This document shows positions 13,404 through 32,117 of a stretch of DNA of 64,000 nt, one piece after another. The stretch comes from Alphaproteobacteria bacterium MarineAlpha12_Bin1. Its GTDB lineage: Bacteria; Pseudomonadota; Alphaproteobacteria; UBA6615. Below the pieces are notes generated by a model, which saw only the letters and a program-made list of their open reading frames with translations, was not told where the DNA came from and ran no database searches. Location of the stretch: NCBI GenBank assembly GCA_002937505.1, contig PTJY01000002.1:186001-250000 (forward strand). Reading direction: 5' to 3'. Both the position numbers and the translations under genes were made by a program. Each line of letters starts with the position of its first letter. Position 1 is the stretch's first letter.

Positions 13404-13618
13404 TTTCTTTTAATTATTCGAAAACTTAAATCTTTTTAACTAATTAATCACTATAGGTATAAGGAAAAAAATTAATATTTTAAAAGAGCTGGATTGAAGC
13501 TTAAGGTGATATAAGGTCCTTTACTAACCGCAAATAAAAAGGTTGAATTGGGCATCTCGCTGAGTAGCCATAAAGACCAATAGCAGACTGGTATTAAAAT
13601 AAAGCAAGGAAATTAAGT

Positions 13619-14422: not shown

Positions 14423-14457
14423 TAAATTTTAATATAACAAATTTTTAAACATTCTAG

Positions 14458-14489
14458 CGACTGGCTTCTTTAATTGGCCAGTCGTTTTT
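14458..14489 (+). terminator. Intrinsic terminator after the deiodinase-like gene
   Basis: An 8-bp stem CGACTGGC/GCCAGTCG with an eleven-base loop is followed directly by TTTTTCTTT on the + strand, 36 bases after the stop codon of the deiodinase-like gene. This is a standard Rho-independent terminator shape. Confidence 0.85.
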
Positions 14490-14561
14490 CTTTACAAGAA
14501 TTACATGAAAAAAGAAAACTGAGCTAAAGAAATTTATAAATAGCGGTTTCTGAATAAATCC

Positions 14562-15119
14562 TTATTTTCGTTTTTTTGTTTTGCTCAAAGAATCAATAAT
14601 GAATTGGTACATTTCTGTTTTTGATTGTTCAATAAAACTACCGCCACCAGTATTTATTGAGAAATCGCTTTTTTTAGGAACCTCATAAGGATTTGAATCT
14701 GAGTATCCGACTAAATCAGTTATTAGACCATTATCGGCCGAAGAATAGAGTCCTTTAGGATCTCTCTCTTTTAAACTTTCAAGATCTGTTTTTATGTATA
14801 TTAATCGAAAGTTTGCACCTAATTTAGTTCTTACAGCTACTCTCGCTTCCTCATAGGGGCTAATTACAGAAACAATAACAACGTCAAATAAATTTTTGTA
14901 CTCTACGCATATGTTGGCAATACCCAAATTATTTTTCATCACATCATCACGACTAAAACCTAATTTTTTTTTATATTTTTTTCTAACGTCATCACCGTCA
15001 ATAACCAAAACTTTTAAATCAATATCTGTGAGCATTTGTTCAACTGCTCTTGAAAGAGTCGTTTTTCCCGACCCCGACATGCCAGTAAGCCAAATAAATA
15101 GTGCGTCACATGTTTTCAT
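14562..15119 (-). CDS. cysC: Adenylylsulfate kinase-like protein
   Basis: This 185-residue P-loop kinase resembles APS kinase, which phosphorylates adenylyl sulfate to PAPS. Walker A is GMSGSGKT at 13-20. VIDGDDVRKKY and LGFSRDDVMKNN follow the family pattern, and ISPYEEAR and RDPKGLY are the later conserved boxes. It lies four bases downstream of the short pyruvate-kinase-like gene on the same strand, so the two are probably one unit. No ATP sulfurylase or PAPS reductase gene is nearby, so a role outside assimilatory sulfate reduction, such as modifying a surface sugar, is possible. Confidence 0.82.
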   Translation of the reverse strand: MKTCDALFIWLTGMSGSGKTTLSRAVEQMLTDIDLKVLVIDGDDVRKKYKKKLGFSRDDVMKNNLGIANICVEYKNLFDVVIVSVISPYEEARVAVRTKLGANFRLIYIKTDLESLKERDPKGLYSSADNGLITDLVGYSDSNPYEVPKKSDFSINTGGGSFIEQSKTEMYQFIIDSLSKTKKRK

Positions 15120-15123
15120 TGAG

Positions 15124-16134
15124 CTAAGATCCCTCGATTATTTTTTTTAACGAGAGTTTAGGGCTCCATGCAGAGTATTCTCTGATAATTGCATTAATAA
15201 TATCGACAGATTCAGTTGGATACTTGCCTATAGCAGTCTCTGCTGCCAAGACTAACCCTCTAGCGCCCATCAACAGCGTGCTAGCCACATCATTAGCCTC
15301 TGCCCTGGTTGGTCCCTTATTTACGGTCATAGATTCGAGTAAATTAGTAGCCACATAAACTGGAACTTCAAATTTGTTCGCGAAAGAGATAATCCTTCTC
15401 TGCAAAAAAGGAATCTTTTCTATTGAAACTTCTCTAGATAAGTCGCCTCGGTCTATTAAAATCTGCTGAACTAAAGGAAGAATTTCTTTAAGATTTAAAA
15501 CACCTTCAATACTTTCTATTTTGGCTATTAAATTTTTCTCTCCGATAATTTTTCTAACAGCTCTTACGTCATCAGCTCTATTGGTGAATGAGAGAGCAAA
15601 GTTTTCTATACCTTTATCGATACCAATTCTAAATGCAGCTTCATCTTTGGGTGTAATAGCAGGCAAATGGATTGTCTTGTTAATGGTTACGGCTTTATTG
15701 CTACCGACATGTCCTTCATGAATAACTTTACAAGTAACTATATCCTTTTCCAACTTTATTACTTTTAAACAAACAGAATTAAAATCTATCCTTATTTCGT
15801 CACCCATTGATAATTGATCAAACACAGATGCTGGAGTTAATGAAATAATTTTTTCATTTCCCACCTTTTTATCTCTACTGATGGAGACTAAATTATTTAA
15901 ACCGTATTTAACAGATTCACTCACCATCGAACCATTTCTTACCTGAGCTCCCTCACTATCAATGCAAATAGGAACTCCTGACCAAGAACGGATTTTATCA
16001 ATTAAAGCGTCAACTTCTTCTATATTTGTGTGTGATAAGTTTATTCTAAATAGACTCACACCTCTTTGTTCTAGGCCCTCAACAGTTTTTTTATTCAGGG
16101 AAGTGGGGCCTAAAGTTGTTAGTACTTTTATCAT
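15124..16134 (-). CDS. Short pyruvate kinase-like protein lacking the C-terminal regulatory domain
   Basis: This protein of 336 residues covers the TIM-barrel A domain and the inserted B domain of pyruvate kinase but ends where the regulatory C domain would begin; ordinary enzymes have about 470-480 residues. FRINLSH at 29-35, the catalytic-lysine segment IAKIESIEG (K205), IDRGDL at 228-232 and GPTRAEANDVA are conserved. The usual LDTKGPEIR is changed to IDSEGAQVR (58-66), losing its Lys. It precedes the APS-kinase-like gene by four bases. Activity on phosphoenolpyruvate is likely but altered substrate use cannot be excluded. A normal pyruvate kinase may exist elsewhere. Confidence 0.82.
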   Translation of the reverse strand: MIKVLTTLGPTSLNKKTVEGLEQRGVSLFRINLSHTNIEEVDALIDKIRSWSGVPICIDSEGAQVRNGSMVSESVKYGLNNLVSISRDKKVGNEKIISLTPASVFDQLSMGDEIRIDFNSVCLKVIKLEKDIVTCKVIHEGHVGSNKAVTINKTIHLPAITPKDEAAFRIGIDKGIENFALSFTNRADDVRAVRKIIGEKNLIAKIESIEGVLNLKEILPLVQQILIDRGDLSREVSIEKIPFLQRRIISFANKFEVPVYVATNLLESMTVNKGPTRAEANDVASTLLMGARGLVLAAETAIGKYPTESVDIINAIIREYSAWSPKLSLKKIIEGS

Positions 16135-16220
16135 CGTTTAATATTTTTTTGTTATCTAATTTAGTGTTTTTACAAGTAGTGGTTTCGAGACATAAAAACA
16201 ATTCCGAATCTTAAAAAAAA

Positions 16221-16290
16221 TGGTGTCCCCGGCAGGACTCGAACCTGCTACCTTCAGATTAGAAATAAGTGTATCCATCCTATTACACCT
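16221..16290 (-). pseudogene. tRNA-Arg 3'-half remnant (UCU anticodon loop), att-like
   Basis: On the - strand, 45 bases at 16265-16221 read as the 3' half of a tRNA: anticodon loop TTTCTAA (UCU, Arg), TCTGA half-stem, a T-arm GCAGG-TTCGAGT-CCTGC, acceptor strand CGGGGAC and CCA. The matching 5' acceptor strand and a proper D arm are missing. Upstream, 16283-16264 carries a 20-base stretch shared with the second remnant at 21976, with one mismatch. This is the picture left when an integrating element displaces a tRNA 3' end. Confidence 0.65.
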
Positions 16291-16380
16291 TGATGTTTTT
16301 AAAGGTATATCTGAATTGTTTAGATAAAAACATATATGTGGTAGATACTGATATTTAATATTAATATAAATTTTTTGAAT

Positions 16381-16410
16381 AAAAATGGGCTGTCCTTAGG
16401 ACAGCCCATT
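16381..16410 (-). terminator. Intrinsic terminator of the ABC transporter operon
   Basis: A 12-bp perfect stem AATGGGCTGTCC/GGACAGCCCATT with a three-base loop (16384-16410) is followed on the - strand by a T-run. It lies 25 bases after the stop of the binding protein gene, the last gene of the operon. Confidence 0.88.
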
Positions 16411-16434
16411 TAAACTTATAATGCTATAAAACTG

Positions 16435-17517
16435 CTATTTCCATTTGGACTTATCAGTATATTTAGCATTCTTTGGATCAGCCATCCATGCACGTGCTTC
16501 TGCCATTACTTCAGCTTTATCGAAATCATTAGCACAACCAATGAAATCATTACTAATGAATGAATTGACATCATATTTCTTATCAATTGCTCCGATCATG
16601 AGCATGTCTTTCATTACGCCTTTCCAAGCAGCTTCATCAACATGACCAATTTTGCCAGACTTTCCTGTGTCAGCGTTAATCTGGAGATCGTCAACTGCAT
16701 CTAGATACTTGTAACCGAAGGCAGCATCTTCCCACTCATGTGGTACGCCATCTGGATGACGAGACATAGAAGCAACTATCTCTATGTCTTGTGTACCAAC
16801 GTAAACAGCCTTTGAGTAAGCGCGGAAGAACCCACAAAGTGGTTTTTTTAGTTCATCCATTCTCTTCTCTAACATAGCATAAGTGTTTGCTGGCGCATTT
16901 TTAGCCGATTTAGGAGTGATATCCCGTATAGGAATTCCACGTGCCTCTAAAGCTGCTAAATCATTAATAGAGCCTGCGAATGCAGCTGCAGTACCCTTCA
17001 AAAATACGTTAGCTAGTGTAGGACCGGCGTCGCCAACGATTACAGTTTTAATACCCTTGGCATCAGAACCAGCATGAGCCATAGCAACAGCTAGAGATGC
17101 TGCATCACGATCACTCGCTAGTCCTACAGTCTTACCTTTTAATTCGGTAACTGACTGAATTGGGCTATCCTTAGCAACAAATACTCCTTCTGGAGCTCCA
17201 AGCATAACCGTATAAACAGTTTTTGTTCCTACACCTTCATTTTTTGCTTGAAAGGTCTGAGGGCCATCCAACATAGCTAGGTCAGCATTACCATTCGTCA
17301 AGAATGCAACGTATGGAACAGAAGTATCACCATTAAGTAATTTAAGCTCAACTCCTTCTTCCTCATAATAGCCAAGAACACGAGCAACATGCAGACCATA
17401 GAAGCCCATAGTTCCATTATTTGGCTGAATTAGCGTCAGTTTGGTACCAGCATTCGCAACACCCGAAGCTACCAGCATACCTACTAGAGACGCGGTTAAA
17501 AGTGCTTTTCGTAACAT
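16435..17517 (-). CDS. NMT1/THI5-like ABC transporter periplasmic binding protein
   Basis: This is a secreted solute-binding protein of about 360 residues. The start is taken at the ATG at 17517, which has a GAGGGAGAAGAA ribosome site and opens a clean signal peptide (MLRKALLTASLVG..., cleavage after ANA). Family segments are GFYGLHVARVLGYYEEEGVEL, DLAMLDGP, and SVTELKGKTVGLASD. It is the last gene of an operon with two permeases and an ATPase, the layout of sulfonate, nitrate or thiamine-precursor uptake systems. The ligand cannot be told from sequence; no thiamine riboswitch was recognised nearby. A strong terminator follows. Confidence 0.88.
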   Translation of the reverse strand: MLRKALLTASLVGMLVASGVANAGTKLTLIQPNNGTMGFYGLHVARVLGYYEEEGVELKLLNGDTSVPYVAFLTNGNADLAMLDGPQTFQAKNEGVGTKTVYTVMLGAPEGVFVAKDSPIQSVTELKGKTVGLASDRDAASLAVAMAHAGSDAKGIKTVIVGDAGPTLANVFLKGTAAAFAGSINDLAALEARGIPIRDITPKSAKNAPANTYAMLEKRMDELKKPLCGFFRAYSKAVYVGTQDIEIVASMSRHPDGVPHEWEDAAFGYKYLDAVDDLQINADTGKSGKIGHVDEAAWKGVMKDMLMIGAIDKKYDVNSFISNDFIGCANDFDKAEVMAEARAWMADPKNAKYTDKSKWK

Positions 17518-17601
17518 ACTTTCTTCTCCCTCTTGGTTAACGGACGCAACAATCGTCCAACGATACGGCACAGACATTTATATGCCGCTTACTAAAACAA
17601 A

Positions 17602-18477
17602 CTACATAGGAATATTCCCATGATCTCGGCGCCACTTAGCGGCGCGTTTTCTTGAAACAGAGTTTAATCTTGAATCTCTTTTCCAAAATACAACTCTGTA
17701 GTCAAGTATCTCCATAATTGTAAATAGCATCAAACCCATTGCTGCCATGGTTAATAAAGTTGCAAAGGAACCATCAATCTGAAGTTTGAACGCAAACCTC
17801 TGCATTAGAATACCCACACCAGCAGTAGCAGAGACGAACTCCGCAACAATTGTGCCTAATAAGGCCCCAGTTAGTGCAAGCTTCAAACCAGCAACAATCA
17901 TGGGAATAGCATTTGGGAATTGTAACTTCCAAAAATAATCTCTTTTGGATGCCCCCATAGACCGGAATAAATCACTTCCATCCTCATCAGTTCTTGTTAG
18001 CGCCGTTAATGTATTAACGAACGGAGGAAAGAAACATACAAGAGCCGCCAGGGCAATTTTTGAGCTCCAACCGAAGCCAAACCAGGCAATAATCATAGGT
18101 GTCACAGCAATTCCAGGTGTTACACTAAAAATTACTGCGTATGGGGCTATATAACGCCTAAAAACTGGGCTAAAAGCCGCAGAAACGGCAAGGCTAATAC
18201 CTATTGTAATTCCAATAAAAAAGCCAATCGTAGCTTCAGCTAGAGTGGTGTAAAAATGATAGTAAATTTTGCCGCTGATAAAAAACAAATCAACTAATTG
18301 CGCCCATATCAAACTAGGCCATGGCAATATATATTTATTCAGTTGGCCATTCTGTCCAAGTATTTCCCAAAGGCCAATTATTAACGCAAAGGTGACAATA
18401 TGCTTCACAGAGGATCTTAAAGCTTTTACATACCTTTTATTGACATTATTTTCTGGTTCCAGAGAAGTGGTAGTCAT
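17602..18477 (-). CDS. ABC transporter permease (SsuC/TauC type), second copy
   Basis: This 291-residue BPD-type permease has about six membrane helices and the EAA-like loop around residues 185-210 (FRSMGASKRDYFWKLQFPNA). Its ATG overlaps the stop of the upstream permease (TAATG), showing translational coupling. With the other permease at 18477-19361 it probably forms a heterodimeric channel, as both differ clearly in sequence while keeping the same motif set (PFVNTLT, LKLALTGALLGTIVAEF). Systems of this family often use one permease gene, so the pair is mildly unusual. Confidence 0.88.
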   Translation of the reverse strand: MTTTSLEPENNVNKRYVKALRSSVKHIVTFALIIGLWEILGQNGQLNKYILPWPSLIWAQLVDLFFISGKIYYHFYTTLAEATIGFFIGITIGISLAVSAAFSPVFRRYIAPYAVIFSVTPGIAVTPMIIAWFGFGWSSKIALAALVCFFPPFVNTLTALTRTDEDGSDLFRSMGASKRDYFWKLQFPNAIPMIVAGLKLALTGALLGTIVAEFVSATAGVGILMQRFAFKLQIDGSFATLLTMAAMGLMLFTIMEILDYRVVFWKRDSRLNSVSRKRAAKWRRDHGNIPM

Positions 18478-19361
18478 TATTGCCCCCCCGTCCCAGATAC
18501 CTGTTTATTAATTATACCAGCAAATTCAGAAGCTCTGCGTTTACTTTTCCTTTGCATTAAATCCTCACTATGCCAGTAGATAATGCGATAATTCATTATT
18601 TCAATTGATCGAAAAAGAACAAAGGCAAATACGGTAATAGATAATAAGGTGGAGAAAGCATAGTCCATATTAAGAGTAATTACATATCGCCGCATCATGA
18701 CACCGAGGCCAACATCAGCTTGTATAAACTCAGCAACTAAAGCACCAGCAAATGCCCCAGCGGCAGCGAGTTTTAATCCCGCCGATATGAGCGGCATAGC
18801 GTTAGGAACCATTAGTTTAAAAAATATCTGTTTTTTTGAAGCTCGGCAGGAACGGAATAACTCTTCCGATTCTTCATCTATCTGCATGAGGCCGGTCATC
18901 GTATTAACAAATGGCCCGAAGAAACATACCAATGCCGCAAGTGCAATAGCAGAGCCATACCCAAAGCCTAACCAACCCACAAATATAGGTCCGACAGCAA
19001 TACGAGGCATTGCCTCAACTAAAATAATGTAGGGCTTTAAATAATCACGAAAACCTGTATGTAATGCAGCTCCAATAGCCAAACCCATACCAATTGCTGT
19101 ACCAATTAAAAAGCCACCCATCGCTTTTGCAAATGTAGCAGCCAAATGTTCCCAAACGGTGGCCTTAAGAAAGAAAATTTGTAACATTCCTTCGGCTATT
19201 CTAGTAGGGCGAGGGAACATCAAAGGATCAGCAAGACCCATGCGATTAGCTAACTCCCATACGCTCATTAAAACAAGAAAAATAGCAAAATGCTTGGGAA
19301 CAAAGCGCCAAGTATTTTCCCTATCTGGTACGTAGGTAACTTCTGAAGTCTCTGCAGTCAT
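18477..19361 (-). CDS. ABC transporter permease (SsuC/TauC type), first copy
   Basis: This 294-residue inner-membrane permease has about six spans and the cytoplasmic loop LFRSCRASKKQIFFKLMVPNA, which contacts the ATPase. The start overlaps the ATPase stop by an ATGA arrangement and the end overlaps the next permease start. It is paralogous to that permease. The last codons run through a seven-base cytosine run (+ strand 18482-18488). Its partner ATPase is the chimeric gene at 19358. Confidence 0.88.
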   Translation of the reverse strand: MTAETSEVTYVPDRENTWRFVPKHFAIFLVLMSVWELANRMGLADPLMFPRPTRIAEGMLQIFFLKATVWEHLAATFAKAMGGFLIGTAIGMGLAIGAALHTGFRDYLKPYIILVEAMPRIAVGPIFVGWLGFGYGSAIALAALVCFFGPFVNTMTGLMQIDEESEELFRSCRASKKQIFFKLMVPNAMPLISAGLKLAAAGAFAGALVAEFIQADVGLGVMMRRYVITLNMDYAFSTLLSITVFAFVLFRSIEIMNYRIIYWHSEDLMQRKSKRRASEFAGIINKQVSGTGGQ

Positions 19362-20215
19362 ACATAACTTCCTAGAATATTCCGAACTTCAGATTCTATT
19401 TTATTAAATTCTGGTGTTAGCTGTAGTTCTAATGATCGTGGTCTTTCAAAGGGGACTTCTACTATTCTCGCTAGCTTACCAGGTCTTGGTGTCATTACCA
19501 TGACCTCATCTGCAAGAAATATTGCTTCAGCTATATTATGGGTGACAAATAAACTTGTTGTAGCGGTCCCATCTACGATATTCATTAATTCTATGTTAAG
19601 GCGTTCGCGGGTGAATTCATCAAGAGCGCCAAATGGCTCATCTAATAGAAGAATATCAGCTCCAGTTTGCAATAAACGAGCTAATGCAACACGCTGTTGC
19701 ATGCCACCTGATAATTGGCGAGGAAAATGAAACTCAAAGTCTTTTAGGCCAACGAGATGCAGCGCCTGAATTGCCCTACTACGATCCTCATCAGTAATTT
19801 TACCTGCAAGCTCAGATGGGAGTAGGACATTTTCTATCGCCGTACGCCATTCCAAAAGAACTGGCTTCTGGAACATCATACCAATATCAGTCCGTGGATC
19901 AGTAACTTCATTTTCTCTTACTTTGACTGAACCTGATGTTTTCTCAATTAGTCCCGCTACTAGTCTCAATAGCGTGGACTTTCCGCAACCACTAGGTCCA
20001 ACCAAAGATATGAAGTCACCCTCATTAATTTTAAATGATGCCCCCTGAAGAGCAATCACCTCCTCACTAAAAGCTTTAGTTAGTGCGTTTGCTTCTATTA
20101 CAACATCACTATTTGTGGCACTCTGTTTAGAGACCGCTTCACTGACTACAGATTCAGTTTGCGTCTTATCAATCCCTGCACCTTCTGCTCTGTGCCCCTT
20201 CAAACTTTCAACCAT
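19358..20215 (-). CDS. ABC transporter ATPase with a chimeric N-terminus
   Basis: The core, about residues 37-285, is an SsuB/TauB-type ATPase: Walker A LVGPSGCGKST, signature LSGGMQQRVALARLL, Walker B ILLLDEPFGALD, H-loop LFVTHNIAEA. The first 22 residues (MVESLKGHRAEGAGIDKTQTES) closely copy the last residues of the adjacent CorC/HlyC protein and derive from a duplicated segment of its gene. The ATG corresponds to an ATA (Ile) codon in the parent copy. An AAGGA within the former coding sequence lies nine bases upstream and can serve as ribosome site. Residues 23-36 are not typical of the family either. No later ATG exists before the ATPase core. Confidence 0.87.
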   Translation of the reverse strand: MVESLKGHRAEGAGIDKTQTESVVSEAVSKQSATNSDVVIEANALTKAFSEEVIALQGASFKINEGDFISLVGPSGCGKSTLLRLVAGLIEKTSGSVKVRENEVTDPRTDIGMMFQKPVLLEWRTAIENVLLPSELAGKITDEDRSRAIQALHLVGLKDFEFHFPRQLSGGMQQRVALARLLQTGADILLLDEPFGALDEFTRERLNIELMNIVDGTATTSLFVTHNIAEAIFLADEVMVMTPRPGKLARIVEVPFERPRSLELQLTPEFNKIESEVRNILGSYV

Positions 20216-20648
20216 AAATCGATATCCTTGATCCTCTTAGGTGGAACCTTCCTCAGGAATTCGTCGTAATTTTCTCATCAGCAAACCAGAAACCGTGTGG
20301 GTCTTAGCCGCCAGTGATGCCAAACCATGCGCCATCCAATGATGGCCTTCTTCGGTAGCAGGAAATACCTGCTCCGTCAAGATTCAGTTTGCGTCTTATC
20401 AATCCTTACACGTTCTGCTCTGCGCCCCTTCAAACTTTCAACTATAAATCGATATCCTTGATCCTCTACGATGTCACCTTCCTCAGGAATTCGTCGTAAT
20501 ATTCTCATCAGGAAACCAGAAACCGTGTGGGCCTTATACGAATCAGGAATGGAATAATCAGTTAAGCGTTCTACATCCGCCAGTGATGCCAAACCATGCG
20601 CCATCCAATGATCGCCTTCTTCGGTAACGGGAAACACCTGCTCCGTCA
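20151..20648. repeat. Tandem partial duplication of the corC-like 3' end
   Basis: Two head-to-tail copies are present: 20151-20380 (230 bases) and 20381-20648 (268 bases). Both begin GATTCAGTTTGCGTCTTATC and end at CTCCGTCA. The left copy has lost 39 bases (13 codons in frame) and carries point changes, including a TAA at 20239-20237 in the former frame and the ATA-to-ATG change that starts the ATPase gene. The right copy is the functional end of the CorC/HlyC gene, whose TGA stop at 20379-20377 is formed exactly at the copy junction. Confidence 0.92.
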
Positions 20649-21690
20649 CATCAGTTTCATCAGCGATCTCACCCACAATTTCTTCTAATAAATCCTCTAG
20701 AGTTACGATACCAACGAATGAACCATATTCATCAATAATACAGGCCATATGCGCTCTCTCCTGACGCATTTGATCGAATAATCTTGATACCTTTTGAGTT
20801 TCAGGAACAATCAAAGGTTCACGTAAATAGCTACTTAGGTCCTTCCATGGCTCTTGTTCTCCCTCAAGTAAAGCCCTCGTCAAATCTACCATCAAAACAA
20901 CACCCAGTAGATCTTCGTTTTGTCCTTCAACCAGAGGATAACGAGAATGACCTTTTTCTCGCATGACTTGCAGATTAGTCTTAACAGGAGCATCCGCTCG
21001 CAAGACATCCGATTCGATCCTAGGAATCATAACGCTGGCAACTGACCGCTCATCAAACTCAAATACATTTTGAATCATCTCTGCTGTATCACTTTGCAAT
21101 TTTCCATGTTCGGTTGACACATCTACCAGTGTCCGGATTTCATCATCAGATAGAATCTCCATATGTCCTTCCTCGGATATACCCATAAGGACTAAAATTG
21201 CCCTAGAGGCCTTATTCAGGACCCAGGTAAGTGGAAAAAACAGCCAATAAGAAAACTGTAATGGATAAGCAATTAATAATGATACTGGTTCGGCTTTGCG
21301 AATTGCCCAAGTCTTAGGAACCTGTTCACCTATAACAATATGAAACGAGGAAAATGTCAAAAAACCTATAAGAAAAGAAATCGAATGAAGTGTTTCATCA
21401 CTTAAACCCATTGGGGCTAATAAGGGTTCAAGTAATGCAGCTACTGTTGGTTCACCAACCCAACCCAAACCCAGAGAAGCCATCGTTATTCCTAACTGAC
21501 AGTTAGCTAGATAGCCGTCTATATGTTTTATCATGTGAAGACTAAGCTTAGCTGCACCACCTCTAGTTTCCGCTAAATTTTCAATACGAAAACCTTTGGC
21601 TTTTACAAGCGCAAACTCAGCTGCAACATAAAATCCGTTAGCTACAAGCAGCAAAAAAGCTACAAATAAATTAGCTCCCGCACTTTCCAT
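20377..21690 (-). CDS. CorC/HlyC-CNNM-type transporter-associated protein
   Basis: This 437-residue protein has an N-terminal CNNM/DUF21 membrane domain (about 1-190, three to four helices, with GEQVPKTWAIRKAEP), a CBS-domain pair at about 205-335 (IDEYGSFVGIVTLEDLLEEI) and a CorC_HlyC domain at about 350-425 (ILRRIPEEGDIVEDQGYRF). Family members are linked to Mg2+/Co2+ efflux. Its stop codon is created by the junction of a tandem duplication, so the natural C-terminus may once have been different. The gene heads the same-strand run that leads into the ABC transporter operon. Confidence 0.9.
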   Translation of the reverse strand: MESAGANLFVAFLLLVANGFYVAAEFALVKAKGFRIENLAETRGGAAKLSLHMIKHIDGYLANCQLGITMASLGLGWVGEPTVAALLEPLLAPMGLSDETLHSISFLIGFLTFSSFHIVIGEQVPKTWAIRKAEPVSLLIAYPLQFSYWLFFPLTWVLNKASRAILVLMGISEEGHMEILSDDEIRTLVDVSTEHGKLQSDTAEMIQNVFEFDERSVASVMIPRIESDVLRADAPVKTNLQVMREKGHSRYPLVEGQNEDLLGVVLMVDLTRALLEGEQEPWKDLSSYLREPLIVPETQKVSRLFDQMRQERAHMACIIDEYGSFVGIVTLEDLLEEIVGEIADETDVTEQVFPVTEEGDHWMAHGLASLADVERLTDYSIPDSYKAHTVSGFLMRILRRIPEEGDIVEDQGYRFIVESLKGRRAERVRIDKTQTES

Positions 21691-21975
21691 AATTTTTTAT
21701 AATCCTCATATAATGAATATTCATAAGCATACAAATGCTTAGCCCATGTAGTAAGCTTTACGTAAAATAAAATATTGAACTAAATAGAAATTAAACCTTA
21801 CCTTATAACTACATTATTAAATTTTAATGGCTATTTCAACAAGAGGTTATGAGCTCTACCTTTCTCACACTTAATCCTGACTTTACCACTAGATATATCT
21901 ACTTTCATCGCAATCTATTCCCTATTCTCTATATGGGAGATCGACATGATATGAGAGATTTAACTCTCATGAAAG
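21691..21975. other. Intergenic stretch with a short palindrome
   Basis: No gene is supported here. The only structure seen is ATGAGAG-atttaa-CTCTCAT at 21951-21970, next to the second tRNA remnant; it has no T-run and could be an operator, a weak terminator or part of an attachment site. The upstream region of the CorC/HlyC gene (21691-21840) is very AT-rich and may hold its promoter, but no clear -35/-10 pair could be assigned. Confidence 0.35.
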
Positions 21976-22045
21976 TGGTCTCCTCGGCAGGACTCGAACC
22001 TGCTACCTTTGTATTAGGAATAAGTGTGTCCATCCTATGACATAT
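21976..22045 (-). pseudogene. tRNA-Arg 3'-half remnant (CCU anticodon loop), att-like
   Basis: On the - strand the sequence from 22020 to 21976 contains anticodon loop TTCCTAA (CCU), an intact T arm GCAGG-TTCGAGT-CCTGC, acceptor strand CGAGGAG and CCA. That acceptor strand is exactly complementary to the 5' acceptor strand CTCCTCG of the intact tRNA-Arg at 23744-23820, yet no 5' half is present here. The preceding bases (22038-22019) repeat the arm found beside the 16.2-kb remnant. This fits a displaced 3' end of tRNA-Arg(CCU) left by site-specific integration. Confidence 0.68.
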
Positions 22046-22108
22046 TAGATTTCCCTTTGTTTTCTACAACTTATGATGCCTCTTATTATAGATTGACTGT
22101 ATTTTGGT

Positions 22109-22134
22109 ATTCACATAATAGTTATTTTGTGAAT
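22109..22134. promoter_or_regulatory. Inverted repeat at the left edge of the GC-rich insert
   Basis: ATTCACA and TGTGAAT form a perfect 7-bp inverted repeat separated by 12 bases, lying just before base composition switches from AT-rich to GC-rich. It has the form of an operator or a recombinase-binding site. No neighbouring promoter could be assigned. Confidence 0.35.
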
Positions 22135-22193
22135 GGAGATTGTGATGTAAACTCGTTGTGCACGATCATCTCCGAACATATCGGAATAGACCG

Positions 22194-22391
22194 TCAGTCC
22201 GTCGTCCCTTCTCGTGCGCGTGCAATGCACGTCGCTACTTCCGCATCGCACAGGTCGAGCAGGTCATCCAGGGTGTGCAATGGCCCGAAGTCGGCACACA
22301 GGCGCGTCACGTTTACGAAGTCATTCTGTTCGTGGTGCTGGGCAACAACGACGGCTTCACCGCCGGCCAGAGCGGATCCTAATTTGAGCAT
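22194..22391 (-). CDS. Short GC-rich reading frame after the MBL gene, possibly a fragment
   Basis: This 65-codon frame begins with an ATG that overlaps the end of the MBL-fold gene and shares its GC-rich codon use. The predicted peptide (GGEAVVVAQHHEQNDFVNVT..., then LHTLDDLLDLCDAEVAT) looks protein-like but matches no family I recognise. It ends close to the composition boundary, so it may be a truncated remnant of a longer donor gene or a small genuine gene. Confidence 0.35.
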   Translation of the reverse strand: MLKLGSALAGGEAVVVAQHHEQNDFVNVTRLCADFGPLHTLDDLLDLCDAEVATCIARAREGTTD

Positions 22392-23353
22392 TTGTCGAAA
22401 ACCTCGTTGTAGTTGCAGTCGGCGTCGACATGGCGTCGGGGCGAACCTGCGGGGTGCTCGTCGAGGTAGTCGTAGACAACCCCGAGACTTTCGACCTGGA
22501 TCGCCGGCGCGATAAGTCCCAGCCCCGGGGGTTTGTCCGGGTCACCGCGATAGGGCGAACGGAGCGAGCGGTCGAAGCAGTCGCCCTCGGCCATGACGCG
22601 CTCACGTGACCACCCCTGACGTTTCCAGTCGCGCACGGAATCGACGAGTGTGTGCAATCCGTCTCTGGCCGATTGCAACGTGTCCCGCTGGAACGGATCG
22701 CCGTGGCCCGGTACATACCAATCGACGTCGAGCGCCTCCAGCAGGCCAAGCGTCTGGAACCAGGCCCAGGGGTCGCAAGATTGTGCGGCCGGTGCGCAGG
22801 TGCCCGGGAACACGGCGTCCGCGACGAAGGCCACGCGATCGTCCACGGCATGCACGATCGACGAACCGCGCGTATGTCCCGGGGCCTCAATCACGACGAA
22901 CCGTTTTCCCCCAAGCGTAAATGACAACCGCTTGGTGTAGGTCATGTCCGGATGGCGGACCTCGAAACTGTCGACCAGCGCATCGGAGAAGAATTGGTTG
23001 CGTCCCCAGCCGCGCAATGTTTTGCGCATTTCTACAGTCGACCCGCTCGCGCCGACCGCGAGTTCCTCTGCCGTGATCTCGGACGAGATCAGGACGCTCG
23101 CACCCAGCATCGAACAACATGCGCAATGGTCCTCATGGTGTTCGCACAGAATGTGGAATTTGACGGGGACGCGCGTTTCGATGAATTCGCGCCACTGGAG
23201 CGCGGAGGCCGGCGCCATCGGTCCGTCGATCGCCACCGCGCCTTCGTCGGTGATGACTACACCGCTGACGGGGTAAGTGACGAACGCATATGCGTCTCCC
23301 ATCTTAAAAAGACGCGGATCATTCTCTTCGAGAGGTGGCAGGGGATCTGGCAT
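22379..23353 (-). CDS. Metallo-beta-lactamase-fold hydrolase with altered first metal motif
   Basis: This 324-residue protein has an MBL-fold layout: a beta-rich N-terminus with VVITDEGAVAIDGP, a metal motif at 71-76, EAPGHTRGSS near 160, VADAVFPG, and VPGHGDP near 215. The usual HxHxDH motif reads E-H-H-E-D-H at 71-76, so the first zinc-ligand His is Glu while H73, D75 and H76 remain. A C-terminal helical part of about 100 residues follows. Codon use is GC-rich, unlike every neighbour, which implies transfer from a high-GC donor. Substrate unknown; the class includes glyoxalase II, lactonases and dehalogenase-like enzymes. Confidence 0.82.
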   Translation of the reverse strand: MPDPLPPLEENDPRLFKMGDAYAFVTYPVSGVVITDEGAVAIDGPMAPASALQWREFIETRVPVKFHILCEHHEDHCACCSMLGASVLISSEITAEELAVGASGSTVEMRKTLRGWGRNQFFSDALVDSFEVRHPDMTYTKRLSFTLGGKRFVVIEAPGHTRGSSIVHAVDDRVAFVADAVFPGTCAPAAQSCDPWAWFQTLGLLEALDVDWYVPGHGDPFQRDTLQSARDGLHTLVDSVRDWKRQGWSRERVMAEGDCFDRSLRSPYRGDPDKPPGLGLIAPAIQVESLGVVYDYLDEHPAGSPRRHVDADCNYNEVFDKCSN

Positions 23354-23373
23354 AATTCTACCTGAGTCGTTGA

Positions 23374-23523
23374 TTAATTGAGTCTATACTCAATATCAGA
23401 GTGCCCAGATAGATTCAACATCTCGGCTGGACGCTGGGCCTCGTGTAGCTCACGAAATGCCACATGTTCGCGGCGCGTCACATCGCCGGGCGTTCGCTTG
23501 CCAAACTTCGGCAGATAAAATCC
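23374..23523 (-). pseudogene. C-terminal gene fragment in the GC-rich insert
   Basis: On the - strand an open frame without a start runs from the insert edge to a TAA at 23376-23374, just before the MBL gene. About 45 codons are visible (LPKFGKRTPGDVTRREHVAF, then RELHEAQRPAEML) with GC-rich codon use through most of the length. It reads like the C-terminus of a donor gene cut off at the boundary. The family is not recognised. Confidence 0.45.
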
Positions 23524-23743
23524 TTATTAATGTTAGTGAAGGTAAATACCCATAGGTGTTTAAAATTATTCCCACTGGGAATAATAGTTCTGATTATCTG
23601 ATTTTTAGATTAATCAAATAATCAATTAATCAATCATTAGTTATTCTTACTATCACCCAAAAACCACTCTCTGGACACATACTACCCAATAATTTTGGAA
23701 TAGAGTTTAGTATATCTTAGATAAGAAAATAGGGTGGAATAAA

Positions 23744-23820
23744 TGGCCTCCTCGGTAGGATTCGAACCTACGACATCTTCATTAGGAATGAAGCACTCTA
23801 TCCAACTGAGCTACGAGGAG
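23744..23820 (-). tRNA. tRNA-Arg (anticodon CCU)
   Basis: A complete 77-base cloverleaf on the - strand: acceptor CTCCTCG/CGAGGAG, D arm with AGCTCAGTTGGATAGAGT, anticodon stem CTTCA/TGAAG with loop TTCCTAA (anticodon CCU, reads AGG), T arm GTAGG-TTCGAAT-CCTAC, and an encoded CCA. Its 3' end faces the GC-rich insert and the two displaced tRNA 3' halves, the normal geometry of a tRNA used as an integration site. Confidence 0.95.
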
Positions 23821-23974
23821 ACTCTATGATTTCATACTCTCTTTTAGTAATATTGTTCAAGTTTTAAGATATTATAATATTCACAAATCGTTCACATAAA
23901 GTATTTTAACAAAAGTGTAGGTTGTAAGCACTTGATTTTATTGAATGATTTCAACACCAAGGATGGATTAATTT

Positions 23975-24013
23975 ATTAGGTATCTGATACTCTATCCTGA
24001 TAGCTACGGAGAC
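23975..24013 (-). pseudogene. tRNA-Arg 5'-half remnant
   Basis: On the - strand 24013-23975 reads as a tRNA 5' half: acceptor GTCTCCG, TA, D arm with AGCT...GGATAGAGT, half anticodon stem TCAGA and loop TACCTAA ending where the 3' halves begin. Its acceptor strand can pair with CGGGGAC of the 16.2-kb 3' half in all seven positions, one as G-U, and its TCAGA pairs with that half's TCTGA. Position 33 is A instead of the invariant U, so it is not functional. It lies 154 bases beyond the intact tRNA-Arg. Confidence 0.55.
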
Positions 24014-24056
24014 GCAAAACCAACTGAACTATAACGAAAGAATACAAAAAATAATA

Positions 24057-24974
24057 ATGAATTTAAAAGTAAGTGTGAAATCTTCAACTCTAGGTTTTAT
24101 TGCTGGAATATTCGCATTGATAACAACAGTAGCAATGCTACTTGCGGGACGTATCGGAGCTACCGGTGACGTCCTGACAATTTGGGATTTAGCAGGAATA
24201 AGACATGGAATAGCAGCAATACTTGCAATCCCATTAATAATTTACAGCAAGCCATGGCATATGAAGCTAAGCCAATATTTAGTTTCTTCCATTTTTGGCG
24301 GAGCGCCTTTTGTTTTACTTTTGTTTGGTGGCATGGTTTATGCTCCAGTTTCACACGCTGGCATTTTTATGAATGGTACTCTTCCTTTAGCAGCTACAGT
24401 TATTGCCTGGTTTTGGCTAAAAGAAAAACCTAATTCCTGGCAAGCTTTGGGAATAATAATAATTCTTGTAGGAATGAGTTTAGTTATATGGCAGGCAGTA
24501 CCAGAAATAAGGTCAGATTATTGGATAGGGCATCTTTTGTTTGTAGCATCCGGAATCTGGTTTTCTGTCTGGTATGTTTCTATTCGTGCTTGGAAACTAA
24601 CTGTAATACAAACCCTTTGTTCCTTGCTCGTTTTTAACGCAGTTTTTTATACTCCAATTTGGCTAATTTTTCTTCCTAGCGGACTATCCACAGCTCCAAT
24701 TAAGGATATTACTTTACAAGTAATTGTGCATGGTGTGTTCGGTGCTTTTTTAGCAGTTTTTGGTCATGCCTATGCTGCACGCACTATAGGACCGATGAAA
24801 CAGTCAGCAATAATGGCTGGAGCGCCAATTCTAGCTCTAATAATTTCTGTTCCACTACTTGGAGAAGTAGCAACATCTTTAGATGTTACTGGGGCTATAA
24901 TAGTAACTTTTGGTATTCTACTCGTAGTTGGCATACGCTTAAACTACCCCAACTTTTGCACCAAAAACAAATAA
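24057..24974 (+). CDS. EamA/DMT-family permease
   Basis: This 305-residue membrane protein has about ten helices in two homologous EamA halves. Features are the N-terminal AGRIGATGDVLTIWDLAGIRHG segment, FGGMVYAPVSHAGIFMNGT near residue 90, and AARTIGPMKQSAIMAGAPI near 240-258. The family exports or imports small metabolites such as amino acids and nucleosides; the cargo is unknown. It is clearly related to the permeases at 49970 and 50908 (shared ARTIG and SGAP/MAGAP segments). It stands alone between the tRNA region and the convergent folB gene. Confidence 0.88.
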   Translation: MNLKVSVKSSTLGFIAGIFALITTVAMLLAGRIGATGDVLTIWDLAGIRHGIAAILAIPLIIYSKPWHMKLSQYLVSSIFGGAPFVLLLFGGMVYAPVSHAGIFMNGTLPLAATVIAWFWLKEKPNSWQALGIIIILVGMSLVIWQAVPEIRSDYWIGHLLFVASGIWFSVWYVSIRAWKLTVIQTLCSLLVFNAVFYTPIWLIFLPSGLSTAPIKDITLQVIVHGVFGAFLAVFGHAYAARTIGPMKQSAIMAGAPILALIISVPLLGEVATSLDVTGAIIVTFGILLVVGIRLNYPNFCTKNK

Positions 24975-25020
24975 GTTTGTATGTCTGTTGTCTTATGATT
25001 GGCCTAAACAGTGATGTCTT

Positions 25021-25458
25021 TTAACTTTCTAACTTAAGGTTATTTTCACTAAAACGAACTACTTCACACCCTACTCCTTCACAATCTTCGTAAACATCAG
25101 TTTTTTCACTAGAAACTCTAACGGCCGCGATTTCATTAAATTCAAGACATAAATCTGCTATTTCTTCTACAAGAGTCTCTTGTAAATTTATATGACGACC
25201 CCTAATGAGATAATGAATTGAGTCTCTCACAAGATCATAGTCAAACACTTCAGCTATACTGTCTCTAGATGGTGCCTCTTCTGTTGCCATATAAATTGTT
25301 ATGTTGATAAGGACTTTCTGTGATTGCCCAATTTCATCATCATTAATCCCAATGTTAACCTGAACTTCTAAATTACGAAAAAAAAGTTTGCGTACAAAAG
25401 AACGTGCCTCTAGTAATTTTTGTTCAACAATATCGGTAATAAGGGCATAATTATTCAT
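25021..25458 (-). CDS. folB: Dihydroneopterin aldolase/FolB-like
   Basis: This 145-residue protein is of the FolB/FolX tunnelling fold. Conserved parts are the N-terminal NIGINDDEIGQSQ (residues 36-48), the segment EVFDYDLVRDSI, RHINLQETLVEEIADLCL and a late SSEKTDVY. FolB converts 7,8-dihydroneopterin to 6-hydroxymethyldihydropterin and glycolaldehyde in folate synthesis. It begins three bases after the stop of a FolM-like SDR, so the two pterin genes form a unit. The N-terminus is about 25 residues longer than usual. Confidence 0.85.
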   Translation of the reverse strand: MNNYALITDIVEQKLLEARSFVRKLFFRNLEVQVNIGINDDEIGQSQKVLINITIYMATEEAPSRDSIAEVFDYDLVRDSIHYLIRGRHINLQETLVEEIADLCLEFNEIAAVRVSSEKTDVYEDCEGVGCEVVRFSENNLKLES

Positions 25459-25461
25459 TCT

Positions 25462-26265
25462 CTATTTTTCTTCTTTTTTTATGGAAAATTCATAACCTTC
25501 TTCTAAATACATTACATCACGCTCACTGCCAATGAGATGCTGACCGCCATCCACTAACAACACTTCTCCAGTAATACTTTTAGCGGAAATTAAATATTTT
25601 ATAGCGCTGGTTACATCCTCCTTAGTAGCACCTCGCCTCAATGGAGTTCTGCCATGAACTGAGGAAAATTGCTCAAAGGTCTGATCCCCACTTGGCAGAA
25701 TTAGGCCGGGTGCAACTGCACATACCCTTATTTTTGGCCCTAAGGCCATAGCTAACATCGTTGTCAGGCCACTAAGCGCGTATTTAGATAAGCTATAACT
25801 AAGAAAGTCCGGGTTTGGATTGACCAGTTTCTGATCTAATAAATTAATTATTATGCCTTCTGTTCCTTCTACAAGAGATTTAGCAAACGCTTGAGAGATT
25901 AAAACTGGCGCTCTAATGTTTACTGCCATAATTGAATCAAAAGTATCAGCAGTAATTGTCAATATGTCATCAGGTGCAAACAATGACGCGTTGTTGATGA
26001 GACAGCCTAATCCACCAGAAACCTGCGCTGATTCATCGATTAGATTACTAATTGCCTCAGGCTTTTTTAAATCCCCATAAATAGCAGAAGCTTTACCTCC
26101 CCTTTCTTGAATTTCGGCTACCGTTTGTAACGCTTCCTTTTCTGATCTCTGGTAGTGCACTATTACATGCCAACCCTGTTCTGCTAGACCAAGAGAAATA
26201 GAACGACCTATTCTTTTTGCCGCACCTGTCACAAGAGCTCCATTGTTTTCCTTCGATTTAGTCAT
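25462..26265 (-). CDS. SDR, pteridine reductase/FolM-like
   Basis: This 267-residue SDR has the cofactor loop TGAAKRIGR, where the Lys-Arg pair is typical of pteridine reductases and dihydromonapterin reductase FolM. NNASLF, LLDQK and the catalytic YSLSKYAL complete the pattern. The coding start overlaps the upstream iminopeptidase stop (ATGA), and folB follows after three bases. A pterin reductase next to a dihydroneopterin aldolase strongly supports a pterin/folate role. Confidence 0.82.
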   Translation of the reverse strand: MTKSKENNGALVTGAAKRIGRSISLGLAEQGWHVIVHYQRSEKEALQTVAEIQERGGKASAIYGDLKKPEAISNLIDESAQVSGGLGCLINNASLFAPDDILTITADTFDSIMAVNIRAPVLISQAFAKSLVEGTEGIIINLLDQKLVNPNPDFLSYSLSKYALSGLTTMLAMALGPKIRVCAVAPGLILPSGDQTFEQFSSVHGRTPLRRGATKEDVTSAIKYLISAKSITGEVLLVDGGQHLIGSERDVMYLEEGYEFSIKKEEK

Positions 26266-27212
26266 CTAATCTGTTTCATCGTTTCAGTTGCCGCGATGAG
26301 CGCATCACGCGTTCCTGGCTCAAAAGCCGAATGACCGGCGTCGTTGATAATTTTATATTCCGCTTCTGGCCATAAAGAAGCAAGATTGTCTGCCGTTATC
26401 GGCGGACAAACCATATCATAACGACCTTGTATGATTATGCCAGGCAAGTGCTTAATAATATCCATGTTTTTAATTAGAGCGCCGTGTTCAAGAAAAGCGT
26501 TATTAGCTAAGTAATGCGCCTCCAGTCTTGCCAAGGCCAATATAACATCGTTCTTTGACAGAAACGAGAAACTTTGTTCATTACCTCGCAGAGAGGAGCA
26601 TGACGCTTCATATTCGGCCCACGCTTTGGCTGCAGGTAAGTTAATTTCGGGGTTGGAGCTATCTAGTCTCCGTTTATAAGCAGACAACAAATCACATCGT
26701 TCACTCTCAGATACCTCATTGACAAATTTTTTCCATTCCTTAGGGAAGAAATGAGACATTCCGGTTAGAAACCACTCCACTTCTTCAGGGCTACAGAGAA
26801 AAATACCACGTAAAATCAACCCTTTGCATCTCTCAACATGCGATTGAGCATAAGCTAAAGCCAGAGTACTCCCCCATGAACCTCCAAAAAGAAACCATTT
26901 TTCAATAAAAAAATACTCTCGCAGGCGCTCCATATCCGCAACCAAATGCTGAGTAGTGTTAGATAATATTGAGCCAATAGGCGTAGACTTTCCGGCGCCT
27001 CTCTGATCAAACAATATAATTCTATAATGCGTTGGATCAAAAAACCTCCGATGTATAGACGACGTTCCTGCACCTGGGCCACCATGTAAAAAAACTATTG
27101 GTTCCCCGTTAGGATTTCCTGACTGCTCCCAATACATCACATGCCCATCACTGAGTTTAAGCTCACCTATTTCATAAGGACTAATTTCTGGAAACAAATC
27201 TCTATGAGCCAA
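26262..27212 (-). CDS. pip: Proline iminopeptidase
   Basis: This is an alpha/beta-hydrolase of 316 residues. The oxyanion segment HGGPGAGTSS at about 43-52 and FDQRGAGKSTP are diagnostic for prolyl iminopeptidase. The nucleophile elbow is GGSWGST, with Asp in GRYDMVCPP near residue 264 and His in DAGHSAFEP near 292. It removes N-terminal proline from peptides in the cytoplasm. The 3' end overlaps the SDR start, so it is the first gene of a three-gene unit with the pterin genes; no functional tie is evident. Confidence 0.92.
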   Translation of the reverse strand: MAHRDLFPEISPYEIGELKLSDGHVMYWEQSGNPNGEPIVFLHGGPGAGTSSIHRRFFDPTHYRIILFDQRGAGKSTPIGSILSNTTQHLVADMERLREYFFIEKWFLFGGSWGSTLALAYAQSHVERCKGLILRGIFLCSPEEVEWFLTGMSHFFPKEWKKFVNEVSESERCDLLSAYKRRLDSSNPEINLPAAKAWAEYEASCSSLRGNEQSFSFLSKNDVILALARLEAHYLANNAFLEHGALIKNMDIIKHLPGIIIQGRYDMVCPPITADNLASLWPEAEYKIINDAGHSAFEPGTRDALIAATETMKQIR

Positions 27213-27406
27213 GGCTTCCTCTTAATTAATTAATAAATGTGAAATGCTCAATCACTAGGTAAGTTAAAAAATGATAAGACCATAATTAACAAACGTAGCA
27301 TAAAGATATCATGCTAATCTAATCAGTTTTTTCTGCTTTGGTAGGCAAATATGTTAGAGTTTGTTATGTAAGCATCGCAGAAGACAAATATAATTTAGAG
27401 CTTTAT

Positions 27407-27928
27407 TTATGCAGCAGTTCTCATCAGAGTTTCTAGCTTATCTACAGCAATCTCATGTTCAATTTCTTCAACTGCGGCAAACTCTCTAGCTAGTCTATCC
27501 AATGCCACTTGGTACATTTGCCGCTCTGAATATGATTGCTCTGGTTGATCTTCATTACGATGCAACTCTCGTACAACTTCGGCGATAGCGATTGGGTCAC
27601 CCGAATTTATCTTCGCTTCGTACTCTTGTGCACGCCTACTCCACATTGTGCGCTTGACCCGCACTCTTCCTTTAAGGGTTTTAAGAGCAGAATCTATAAC
27701 TTTACTATCAGAAAGCTTTCTAAGACCTGATTCTTTAACCTTTGCTATCGGCACCCTGAGTATCATTCTCTCTTTTTCAAAGTTAACGACAAACAATTTC
27801 AGCTTCTGTCCAGAAATTTCGCGATTTTCGACCCCAGTTACCATGCCTACTCCATGGGTTGGATATACTACATAATCCCCTTCTTTAAATTCTAACTTTT
27901 GAATTACTTTTTTTTTCTTTGCTACCAC
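27407..27928 (-). CDS. CarD family transcriptional regulator
   Basis: This 173-residue CarD/CdnL protein has an RNA-polymerase-interacting Tudor-like domain at about 10-70 (GDYVVYPTHGVGMVTGVENR, LFVVNFEKERMILRVPI) and a helical DNA-binding part with MWSRRAQEYEAKINSGD near 94-110. In alphaproteobacteria CdnL-type CarD stabilises open complexes at housekeeping promoters, including rRNA promoters. It lies downstream of fdxA, a neighbour seen widely in the class, but an intrinsic terminator separates them, so it probably has its own promoter. Confidence 0.93.
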   Translation of the reverse strand: MVAKKKKVIQKLEFKEGDYVVYPTHGVGMVTGVENREISGQKLKLFVVNFEKERMILRVPIAKVKESGLRKLSDSKVIDSALKTLKGRVRVKRTMWSRRAQEYEAKINSGDPIAIAEVVRELHRNEDQPEQSYSERQMYQVALDRLAREFAAVEEIEHEIAVDKLETLMRTAA

Positions 27929-28043
27929 GTACTTTACCTATCCTAAAAGATATTTTCGTCATCAATATTAACCACAGCGGTAACGCCTGCTGAGTTTAAA
28001 TTAAATTTTCAGATTAAATTCACCTAACAATGCTAAGCGTGTA

Positions 28044-28076
28044 ATAAAAAAAAGCTAATAAAAACCCAAATTAGCT
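28044..28076 (-). terminator. Intrinsic terminator after fdxA
   Basis: AGCTAAT/ATTAGCT form a 7-bp stem with a ten-base loop (28053-28076). On the - strand it is followed by an eight- to nine-base T-run. It lies about 110 bases after the fdxA stop and before the carD start. Confidence 0.78.
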
Positions 28077-28187
28077 CACCTTATGACCTTGATTACGCTA
28101 ACACAAAATTACATTAATTAATAGACAGAGCGGATCTTATGATTCATGACCGATATGAATGGTAGAAACGATTAGATATTTCTTATT

Positions 28188-28526
28188 TCACGCTTCCTGA
28201 CCAGGATTAGCACTAAAGTGATTTTTAAATTTGTCTGTTTCGTCCTTATAAGCGTCAGCATCAGGTAAGGGATCAGACTTAACTGTCAAATTAGGCCATA
28301 ACTCTGAATATTCTCGGTTAAGCTCCAACCATTTATCAGCTTCAGGCTCAACATCAGGTATAATTGCCTCAGCGGGGCACTCCGGTTCACATACCCCACA
28401 GTCTATACACTCATCTGGGTGAATCACTAACATATTTTCACCTTCGTAAAAACAGTCTACTGGACAAACTTCAACGCAGTCAGTGTACTTGCATTTTATA
28501 CAAGCCTCGGTCACCACGTATGGCAT
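28188..28526 (-). CDS. fdxA: 7Fe ferredoxin FdxA
   Basis: This 112-residue ferredoxin has cysteines at 9, 12, 17, 21, 25, 40, 43, 46 and 50. By comparison with Azotobacter ferredoxin I, C9, C17 and C50 bind a [3Fe-4S] cluster and C21, C40, C43 and C46 a [4Fe-4S] cluster. The segments [19 protein letters not shown] and [13 protein letters not shown] are near-perfect for the family. It is a cytoplasmic low-potential electron carrier. It lies between a TerB-like gene and carD. Confidence 0.95.
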
Positions 28527-28640
28527 TTTTAATTCCTTCCTTAAAATACATCTTGACGTTTTATTAAAATCTTAACGTCCTAAAAATGTTCTACTAAAAA
28601 ATACAAGTAATTCAACTAATAAAAGCTAAAAAATTCTTTA

Positions 28641-29108
28641 CTACATACTGGGCTGTGAATTGCTAACTACCCGCTTGCGTGCTTCACCACTTTCCCTATC
28701 ACTAACGTAGAGCAGGCCAGAAACGCGTCGCAAGAGGTTTGATTCATGATCGTGAACTTTCCCATCTGCATAGACCACATGCCACAGCATCTCAATCATT
28801 TCAATTCTTTCTTCATGATCAAACTGATCACGAATTAAGCTTGTAAATTTAGATATCTCTACTGCATTCTCCGCCACTTGTTCTGCTAGCTCAACAACGG
28901 AAATTACTTCCTCCTCAGATAAATCAAACCTAGAACGTATCAAATCAATAATAGAAGCGTATTCATGATTATCAATATTATCATCCATACGTGCCGCTTC
29001 AATCAAAATAACAGAAGAGGCTAAGTGCAGCTCATTAACTGAGTGCTTTTTATTAGCCTCGTGATTAGTTGATTTAGGCCCAAATAATTTTTTTAAACTA
29101 TCTAACAT
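28641..29108 (-). CDS. TerB-like (tellurite-resistance-type) helical protein
   Basis: This 155-residue, all-helical protein fits the TerB/DjlA-N fold. It has acidic motifs typical of these metal-binding domains: EAARMDDNIDNHEYASI near residues 36-52 and YADGKVHDHESNLLRR near 112-127. There are no membrane segments or DnaJ domain. The function of stand-alone TerB proteins is not settled. It sits between the S4 protein and fdxA. Confidence 0.82.
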   Translation of the reverse strand: MLDSLKKLFGPKSTNHEANKKHSVNELHLASSVILIEAARMDDNIDNHEYASIIDLIRSRFDLSEEEVISVVELAEQVAENAVEISKFTSLIRDQFDHEERIEMIEMLWHVVYADGKVHDHESNLLRRVSGLLYVSDRESGEARKRVVSNSQPSM

Positions 29109-29154
29109 CTTTTCTGGTTTACACAGGATTCGCCTCTACAACAAGGCTACAATA

Positions 29155-29544
29155 TCATTTAAACGGATCATTTAATTGATCAATGGCCCGCCGTTCCCTT
29201 TTAGTGGGACGCCCGGAACCAGCTGCACGAATACCTGTGCTATTGCTTGTCTTATTTCTTAATGTTTTATCAGAGCCAGATAGATCTTGATAGAGGTTTT
29301 TAGCCTCACTAAATGGCCCCCTTCTCGTTCCCACTGAAATAACCCTAATTATCAAAATTCTTTTCCTTAAAATAAATGATAAAACATCCTCTGGTTTCAA
29401 CAGGTGATTGGGCTTGGCAACCAGTTCTCGGTTAACACGGATATTTCCTTCACGACAAAACTTATTTGCTTGAGTTCGGGTTTTACAAAACCGTGCAAAC
29501 CATAACCACTTGTCTAGCCTGACTGTATCAACTGAGTTCTTCAT
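29155..29544 (-). CDS. S4-domain RNA-binding protein (Hsp15-like)
   Basis: This protein of about 129 residues has an N-terminal S4 domain, VRLDKWLWFARFCKTRTQAN followed by GNIRVNRELVAKP, as in the ribosome-recycling heat-shock protein Hsp15/HslR. The rest is basic and probably disordered (GRPTKRERRAID). The ATG at 29544 is chosen because it lies just after the helicase stop and gives the usual spacing to the S4 motif; a TTG at 29580 would overlap the helicase by 26 bases. The helicase and S4 genes adjoin in many alphaproteobacteria. Confidence 0.87.
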   Translation of the reverse strand: MKNSVDTVRLDKWLWFARFCKTRTQANKFCREGNIRVNRELVAKPNHLLKPEDVLSFILRKRILIIRVISVGTRRGPFSEAKNLYQDLSGSDKTLRNKTSNSTGIRAAGSGRPTKRERRAIDQLNDPFK

Positions 29545-29554
29545 TTTTTCATTG

Positions 29555-32065: not shown

Positions 32066-32117
32066 GACTACCCAATCAATTGTCTGGCAGTATAATGCAA
32101 TAAGTATATATGCAGAC

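Follow-up and report, generated by a model that had tools for sequence, protein, structure and literature searches.

The window analysed here, the whole stretch of 64,000 nucleotides, contains some 1.4 kb of GC-rich DNA with a metallo-beta-lactamase-fold (MBL) gene in AT-rich surroundings, and this raises the question of where such DNA came from, how it was inserted and whether it belongs to the genome at all. The first-pass annotation had taken transfer from a high-GC donor by tRNA-targeted integration as the simplest reading, on condition that a chimeric assembly be excluded first. The sharp change in composition that it described at both ends is borne out: across the edges of the insert GC content moves from 0.31–0.38 to 0.60–0.66 and back to about 0.32, each shift occurring within a few hundred bases, and in a scan of the 64-kb window the GC maximum for a stretch of 1,366 bases (0.602) starts at 22147, against a mean of 0.395 (sd 0.023, maximum 0.444) outside the insert. 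Homology to the DNA of relatives (74–76% nt identity) is limited to 22197–23399, so that both composition edges lie beyond the homologous part; these edges do not coincide with attachment repeats, and the 1.4-kb insert itself has no attachment-site ends. Its position between a tRNA 3′ half (21972–22021) and an intact tRNA-Arg(CCT) (23744–23820) was found as described. The GC-rich stretch is one module within an island of 7.7 kb (16267–23975), and it probably represents the foreign cargo of one module in an island built stepwise at tRNA-Arg(CCT) by site-specific insertion at the tRNA, decay and accretion, in a CIME-like manner.

The split tRNA-Arg(CCT) gene and the layout of the island

The features below are given in window coordinates and, where relevant, in comparison with the sister genome G002 and the more distant congener G001.

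16217–16266, minus strand: 3′ half of the native tRNA-Arg(CCT), displaced, matching that of G002 at 98% identity; synteny with G002 stops
16267–16287, no strand: left arm, adjoining the crossover, with TCCATCCT at 16274–16281, repeated at 22022–22042 (repeats D2 and I1)
16288–20142, minus strand: first segment of module A, an ABC importer with NMT1-type substrate-binding protein, two permeases and ATPase (Pfam NMT1, BPD_transp_1, ABC_tran)
20137–20379, minus strand: duplicated CNNM 3′ end, fused to the ATPase frame at six shared bases, CTTCAC (repeats D1 and D4)
20380–21834, minus strand: second segment of module A, a CNNM/CBS/CorC_HlyC-type gene, 98.1% nt identical to contig C8 of G001
21972–22042, minus strand: a further tRNA 3′ half inside the island, with the left arm, where modules A and B meet (repeat D2)
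22043–22150, no strand: AT-rich left flank of module B, no match among the compared loci
22150–23515, no strand: GC-rich insert, by composition and by homology with three same-family genomes over 22197–23399
22197–22391, minus strand: first 65 codons of a truncated FAA-hydrolase-like gene, by alignment with loci L010–L012
22379–23353, minus strand: intact MBL-fold gene, 324 aa (PF00753; relatives at 79–83% aa identity)
23354–23399, minus strand: region upstream of the MBL gene, conserved with donor-type loci, by alignment with relatives
23516–23743, no strand: AT-rich right flank of module B; 23565–23585 is a terminator-like stem
23744–23820, minus strand: intact tRNA-Arg(CCT) borne by the island; the genome gave no other tRNA-Arg(CCT) match, and the layout is that of G001
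23821–23959, minus strand: spacer upstream of the tRNA, common to G001 and absent from G002
23960–23974, no strand: right arm, with AGGATGGA at 23960–23967, mirror of the left arm (inverted repeat I1)
23975–24018, minus strand: decayed 5′ half of the native tRNA-Arg(CCT), 91% identical to the 5′ half in G002; synteny with G002 restarts at 23975

In G002 the counterparts of window 7625–16266 and 23975–32321 adjoin (88–89% nt identity) and the junction falls inside one intact tRNA-Arg(CCT), which represents the uninterrupted site. Here the native gene is split in the anticodon loop and its halves remain at opposite ends of the island; the 5′ half is not joined to any 3′ half, and a complete tRNA gene stands about 155 bases away. 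tRNA halves or repeats lie at 16217, 21972 and 23740. Direct repeat D2 (71 nt, 87%) has the tRNA half and the arm at both copies, the internal 3′ half (21972–22021) sharing 88% identity with the corresponding half of the intact G002 gene, and this recurrence of half plus arm at 21972–22042 divides the island into module A (16288 to about 21971) and module B (22043 to about 23743), followed by the intact tRNA-Arg(CCT) and the spacer. A tRNA-Arg(CCT)-shaped pattern allowing up to 3 mismatches matches one place here, one in G002 and two in G001, the second of the latter having another anticodon by visual inspection; in this genome the other tRNA-Arg looked at is TCT. The proposal of tRNA-targeted integration is supported, with the correction that the integrated unit is the whole island and not the 1.4-kb insert, the native tRNA halves lying outside the coordinates first reported.

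The two mirrored arms agree in 8/8 bases and each lies 7 bases from a 9-base core; by simple arithmetic, one such match has a chance of 4^-8, or about 1.5e-5. Inverted repeat I1 pairs the left arm region with 23960–23987, and 23960–23998 fits the dyad pattern with 2 mismatches. The 24-base arm-plus-core pattern occurs at exactly two places in the genome and at none in a reversed control. Among 385 genomes of the class (a sample without G001 and G002) only this one has the arm dyad pattern, and the arm pattern is absent from G001 and G002 at up to 3 mismatches. Viral contigs yielded neither the arm nor the spacer pattern, and no active or parent element with such arms was seen among viral contigs and class genomes.

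The right end of the corresponding site in G001 shows the same order, i.e. a decayed 5′ half, an arm, a recognisably similar spacer and an intact tRNA, followed by nitrilase and cupin genes, while a left-side island remnant was not found there. Since the closer relative G002 is uninterrupted and the more distant G001 is interrupted, we infer from these comparisons that insertion took place twice at the same base and was not inherited from a single event; a single inherited insertion with loss in G002 may also have led to this distribution.

The metallo-beta-lactamase gene and its source

The MBL-fold gene had been described as whole and flanked by two broken coding pieces. The gene is indeed whole, and its protein scores 37.6 bits against PF00753 (cut-off 22.7), which places it in the superfamily. 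Of the two pieces, the lower one (22197–22391) holds as the start of an FAA-hydrolase-like gene that is full length in the relatives, the full-length gene at L011 belonging to PF01557, while the 65-codon fragment by itself has no Pfam match. The upper one, a 46-aa frame on the minus strand (23377–23514), is without relatives among the 23 other family genomes searched, and at its lower end it overlaps the aligned stretch upstream of the MBL start, so that it is not supported as a gene piece.

The HxHxDH zinc motif is common in the MBL superfamily, though not universal; here the site reads EHHEDH, glutamate taking the place of the first histidine, and it is the same in all four aligned sequences. 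The dN/dS of the gene against its relatives is 0.08–0.12, a range that marks constraint over the whole divergence and not specifically after transfer. Judging from family and constraint, the cell most likely expresses it as a zinc hydrolase of small molecules. A PDB sequence match (8d2z, E 7e-8) is informative to the level of the MBL superfamily only, matches to NCBIfam all lie far under their cut-offs, and a structure prediction from four sequences reached a mean pLDDT of 41 and was left out of the interpretation.

MBL-family matches at E 0.001 or better are found in 35 of 60 related genomes, this one included, and apart from this genome only G017, G020 and G021 among them carry close relatives of the gene (80–83% identity). 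In 84,980 species genomes, scanned in a way that picks up only close relatives, there are three MBL loci at 79–83%, in the same three genomes. At the DNA level these are about 75% identical, and all three genomes are GC-rich and of the same family. In the relatives the gene has a GC content of 0.64–0.67 and a GC3 of 0.78–0.84; the window copy has 0.62 and 0.73, respectively, and six other genes of the window have a GC3 of 0.26–0.31. Transfer from a GC-rich donor is supported by this donor-like GC and GC3 and by the fact that the sole close relatives found are those three genomes. As to presence in independent genomes of the clade, another proposed check, the insert is whole in 1 of 24 family genomes, this one, and in the comparison of family-genome DNA both G001 and G002 are without it. 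The GC-rich stretch is very probably genuine foreign DNA that brought one intact MBL-fold gene from a GC-rich member of the same family.

At L011 the MBL gene lies inside a cassette of about 3 kb that encodes TetR, MBL, FAA hydrolase and CMD and that aligns end to end with L010 (81%) and L012 (77%), with flanks that differ in each. The L011 cassette starts directly after a tRNA-Ala(CGC), and a near-identical second tRNA-Ala(CGC) stands just past its other end; at L012 a tRNA-Ala(CGC) lies about 3.3 kb past the cassette, and in the L010 locus no tRNA was found near it. With flanks that differ per locus, the cassette seems to be a mobile unit in its own right; in 2 of 3 loci a tRNA-Ala(CGC) lies at or near it. 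In the window it is incomplete, the FAA gene ending after 65 codons and the TetR gene being absent. Relatives of the MBL gene were found neither on phages nor on viral contigs, and plasmids gave one match at only 24% identity. As a side observation, the two tRNA-Ala(CGC) genes that enclose the L011 cassette (7142–10470) are 98% identical over 89 bases.

Module A

The first segment of module A (16288–20142) is 98.3% nt identical to G001:C12:100354–104208. In G001 the two segments are unlinked and lie on different contigs (C12 and C8), whereas here they are joined at CTTCAC with a tandem copy of the CNNM 3′ end, partly deleted, between them. Other stretches compared with G001, besides CNNM, reach 65–76% identity against the 98% of module A. 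Five genes of the module have a dN/dS against G001 of 0.05–0.21, calculated from few changes (23 nonsynonymous and 50 synonymous). The cargo of the island comes from at least two sources. At the native CNNM site of this genome (G000:C5:24069–24149, locus L061) the gene is missing, while G001 and G002 keep it there, and a DNA search of the genome finds CNNM only as the island gene and its partial copy. With the native gene lost and the only CNNM found being in the island, the island looks like a working part of the genome and not like an accident of assembly, an argument that bears more directly on module A than on the GC-rich insert.

Two details of the module may be added. At 19358–20379 the ABC ATPase is without its own start, its frame being continuous with the duplicated CNNM tail, and at 21831–21850 the CNNM end shows an inversion of about 20 bases with respect to G001, possibly a template-switch scar.

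Assembly of the island

The island contains no integrase. Only two PF00589 matches occur in the genome, on contigs C1 and C8 and not on C5, and each of three congeners (3/3) likewise has two, which we take to be the expected XerC and XerD. Six island genes scanned for transfer families gave no match. Nevertheless, a gene broken in its anticodon loop, with an arm and its mirror image at the two ends of the island, points to a tyrosine recombinase. An element of this type, since lost, would have inserted by crossover in the anticodon loop at the mirror-arm site and would have brought a complete tRNA-Arg gene; it would then have lost its own genes while its attachment remnants stayed, at which the module with the MBL gene may later have been added. 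Decay of the native 5′ half would make the island hard to lose by now.

The hallmark of tycheposons is a tyrosine recombinase, which this island does not have. What it shares with the tycheposons of marine bacteria (PMC10872708) is a cargo island at a tRNA gene. In Islander (PMC4383910) 2,083 of 3,919 islands have anticodon-centred sites, and the tRNA-site islands treated there share the position between an intact tRNA and a 3′ fragment (here the intact tDNA at 23744–23820 and 3′ halves at 21972 and 16217, all on the same strand), the crossover in the anticodon loop and the tandem arrangement. They differ in that here the integrase is missing, a 5′ half stays behind as well, and the working tRNA stands apart as a whole gene and is not a visibly restored one. 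The closest known process is the one described for CIMEs and tandem accretion (PMC5704250), in which an element decays to a CIME and more DNA then accretes where an attachment remnant is left: attachment-like repeats are kept (D2), integration and transfer genes are absent and modules are stacked at one site. In contrast to that description, two segments of the cargo here are unlinked in the closest donor genome, and the target tRNA lies in two broken halves while a complete gene sits inside the island. No parent ICE or IME was found among viral contigs and class genomes. In the open literature, searches with the terms used returned no relevant report of a complete replacement tRNA supplied by an island, and none of use on microhomology and islands.

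An assembly chimera, in which contaminating GC-rich DNA was joined into the contig, would be in keeping with edges that are sharp and lie apart from attachment repeats, and with an insert found whole in a single family genome and junctions seen in no second one. However, both edges fall inside the 1.77 kb between two attachment-like repeats, about 0.08% of the 2.34-Mb genome, the genome (12 contigs, of which the source contig C5 has 490,747 bases) is rated 100% complete and 0.06% contaminated, and the closest DNA known for a contaminant is only about 75% identical. This position, the empty site in the sister G002 and the fact that the island carries the only CNNM gene and the only tRNA-Arg(CCT) found in the genome make a chimera very unlikely. 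That the MBL gene is ancestral, kept here and lost in the congeners, accords with the family to which its relatives belong; this account is left with hardly any probability and was ruled out, since GC and GC3 are donor-like rather than host-like and the gene, absent from G001 and G002, sits in an island missing from G002.

The remaining alternatives concern the route. Two ordinary tRNA-island integrations, each restoring the tRNA with its own 3′ half, would need no element bringing a whole tRNA gene, the split then going back to a deletion at a later stage or to a third event. An ordinary second integration into the tRNA of the first island would account for the internal 3′ half and the intact tRNA, and anticodon-centred crossovers are common in Islander (PMC4383910), but the succession of 5′ half, arm and spacer in both this genome and G001 is left unexplained by such events alone, and we regard this route as rather doubtful. 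Fragments could also have entered by transformation, in vesicles or through gene transfer agents and been captured at the tRNA repeats, whether by end joining or by short homology, without a site-specific recombinase. The 6-base junction between two unlinked segments that resemble those of a single congener, the small inversion at the CNNM end and the missing integrase speak for capture; against it, anticodon-loop breaks and mirrored arms at a fixed distance at both ends are the signature of a recombinase, and this route is judged unlikely. Stepwise growth by insertion, decay and accretion remains the reading that we prefer.

On that reading, the locus offers a dissected case of a small bacterial genome gaining genes across a wide GC gap, two modules of cargo, from different donors, having been stacked at a single tRNA gene. 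Should the island tRNA be the cell's only tRNA-Arg(CCT), the island would resist loss even though it needs no toxin for this, which amounts to a simple kind of addiction. Tentatively, and with considerable reserve, one might envisage a family of small integrase-less elements in this genus that break the host's only tRNA-Arg(CCT) in the anticodon loop, supply a complete spare by which, after decay of the broken halves, the island becomes locked in, and act as a landing pad for end-joined DNA from several species.

Among the compared loci, the AT-rich flanks of module B show likeness to G001 in about 74 bases, which resemble two near-identical places there, and in about 39 bases beside the tRNA, which resemble its tRNA flank; the remaining flank DNA has no source match among these loci. 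The 74-base stretch, with a terminator-like palindrome, lies at 23558–23631 in the window and recurs in G001 at L059 (3794–3857) and L060 (3301–3364), and both of these near-identical copies stand shortly after an MBL-family match.
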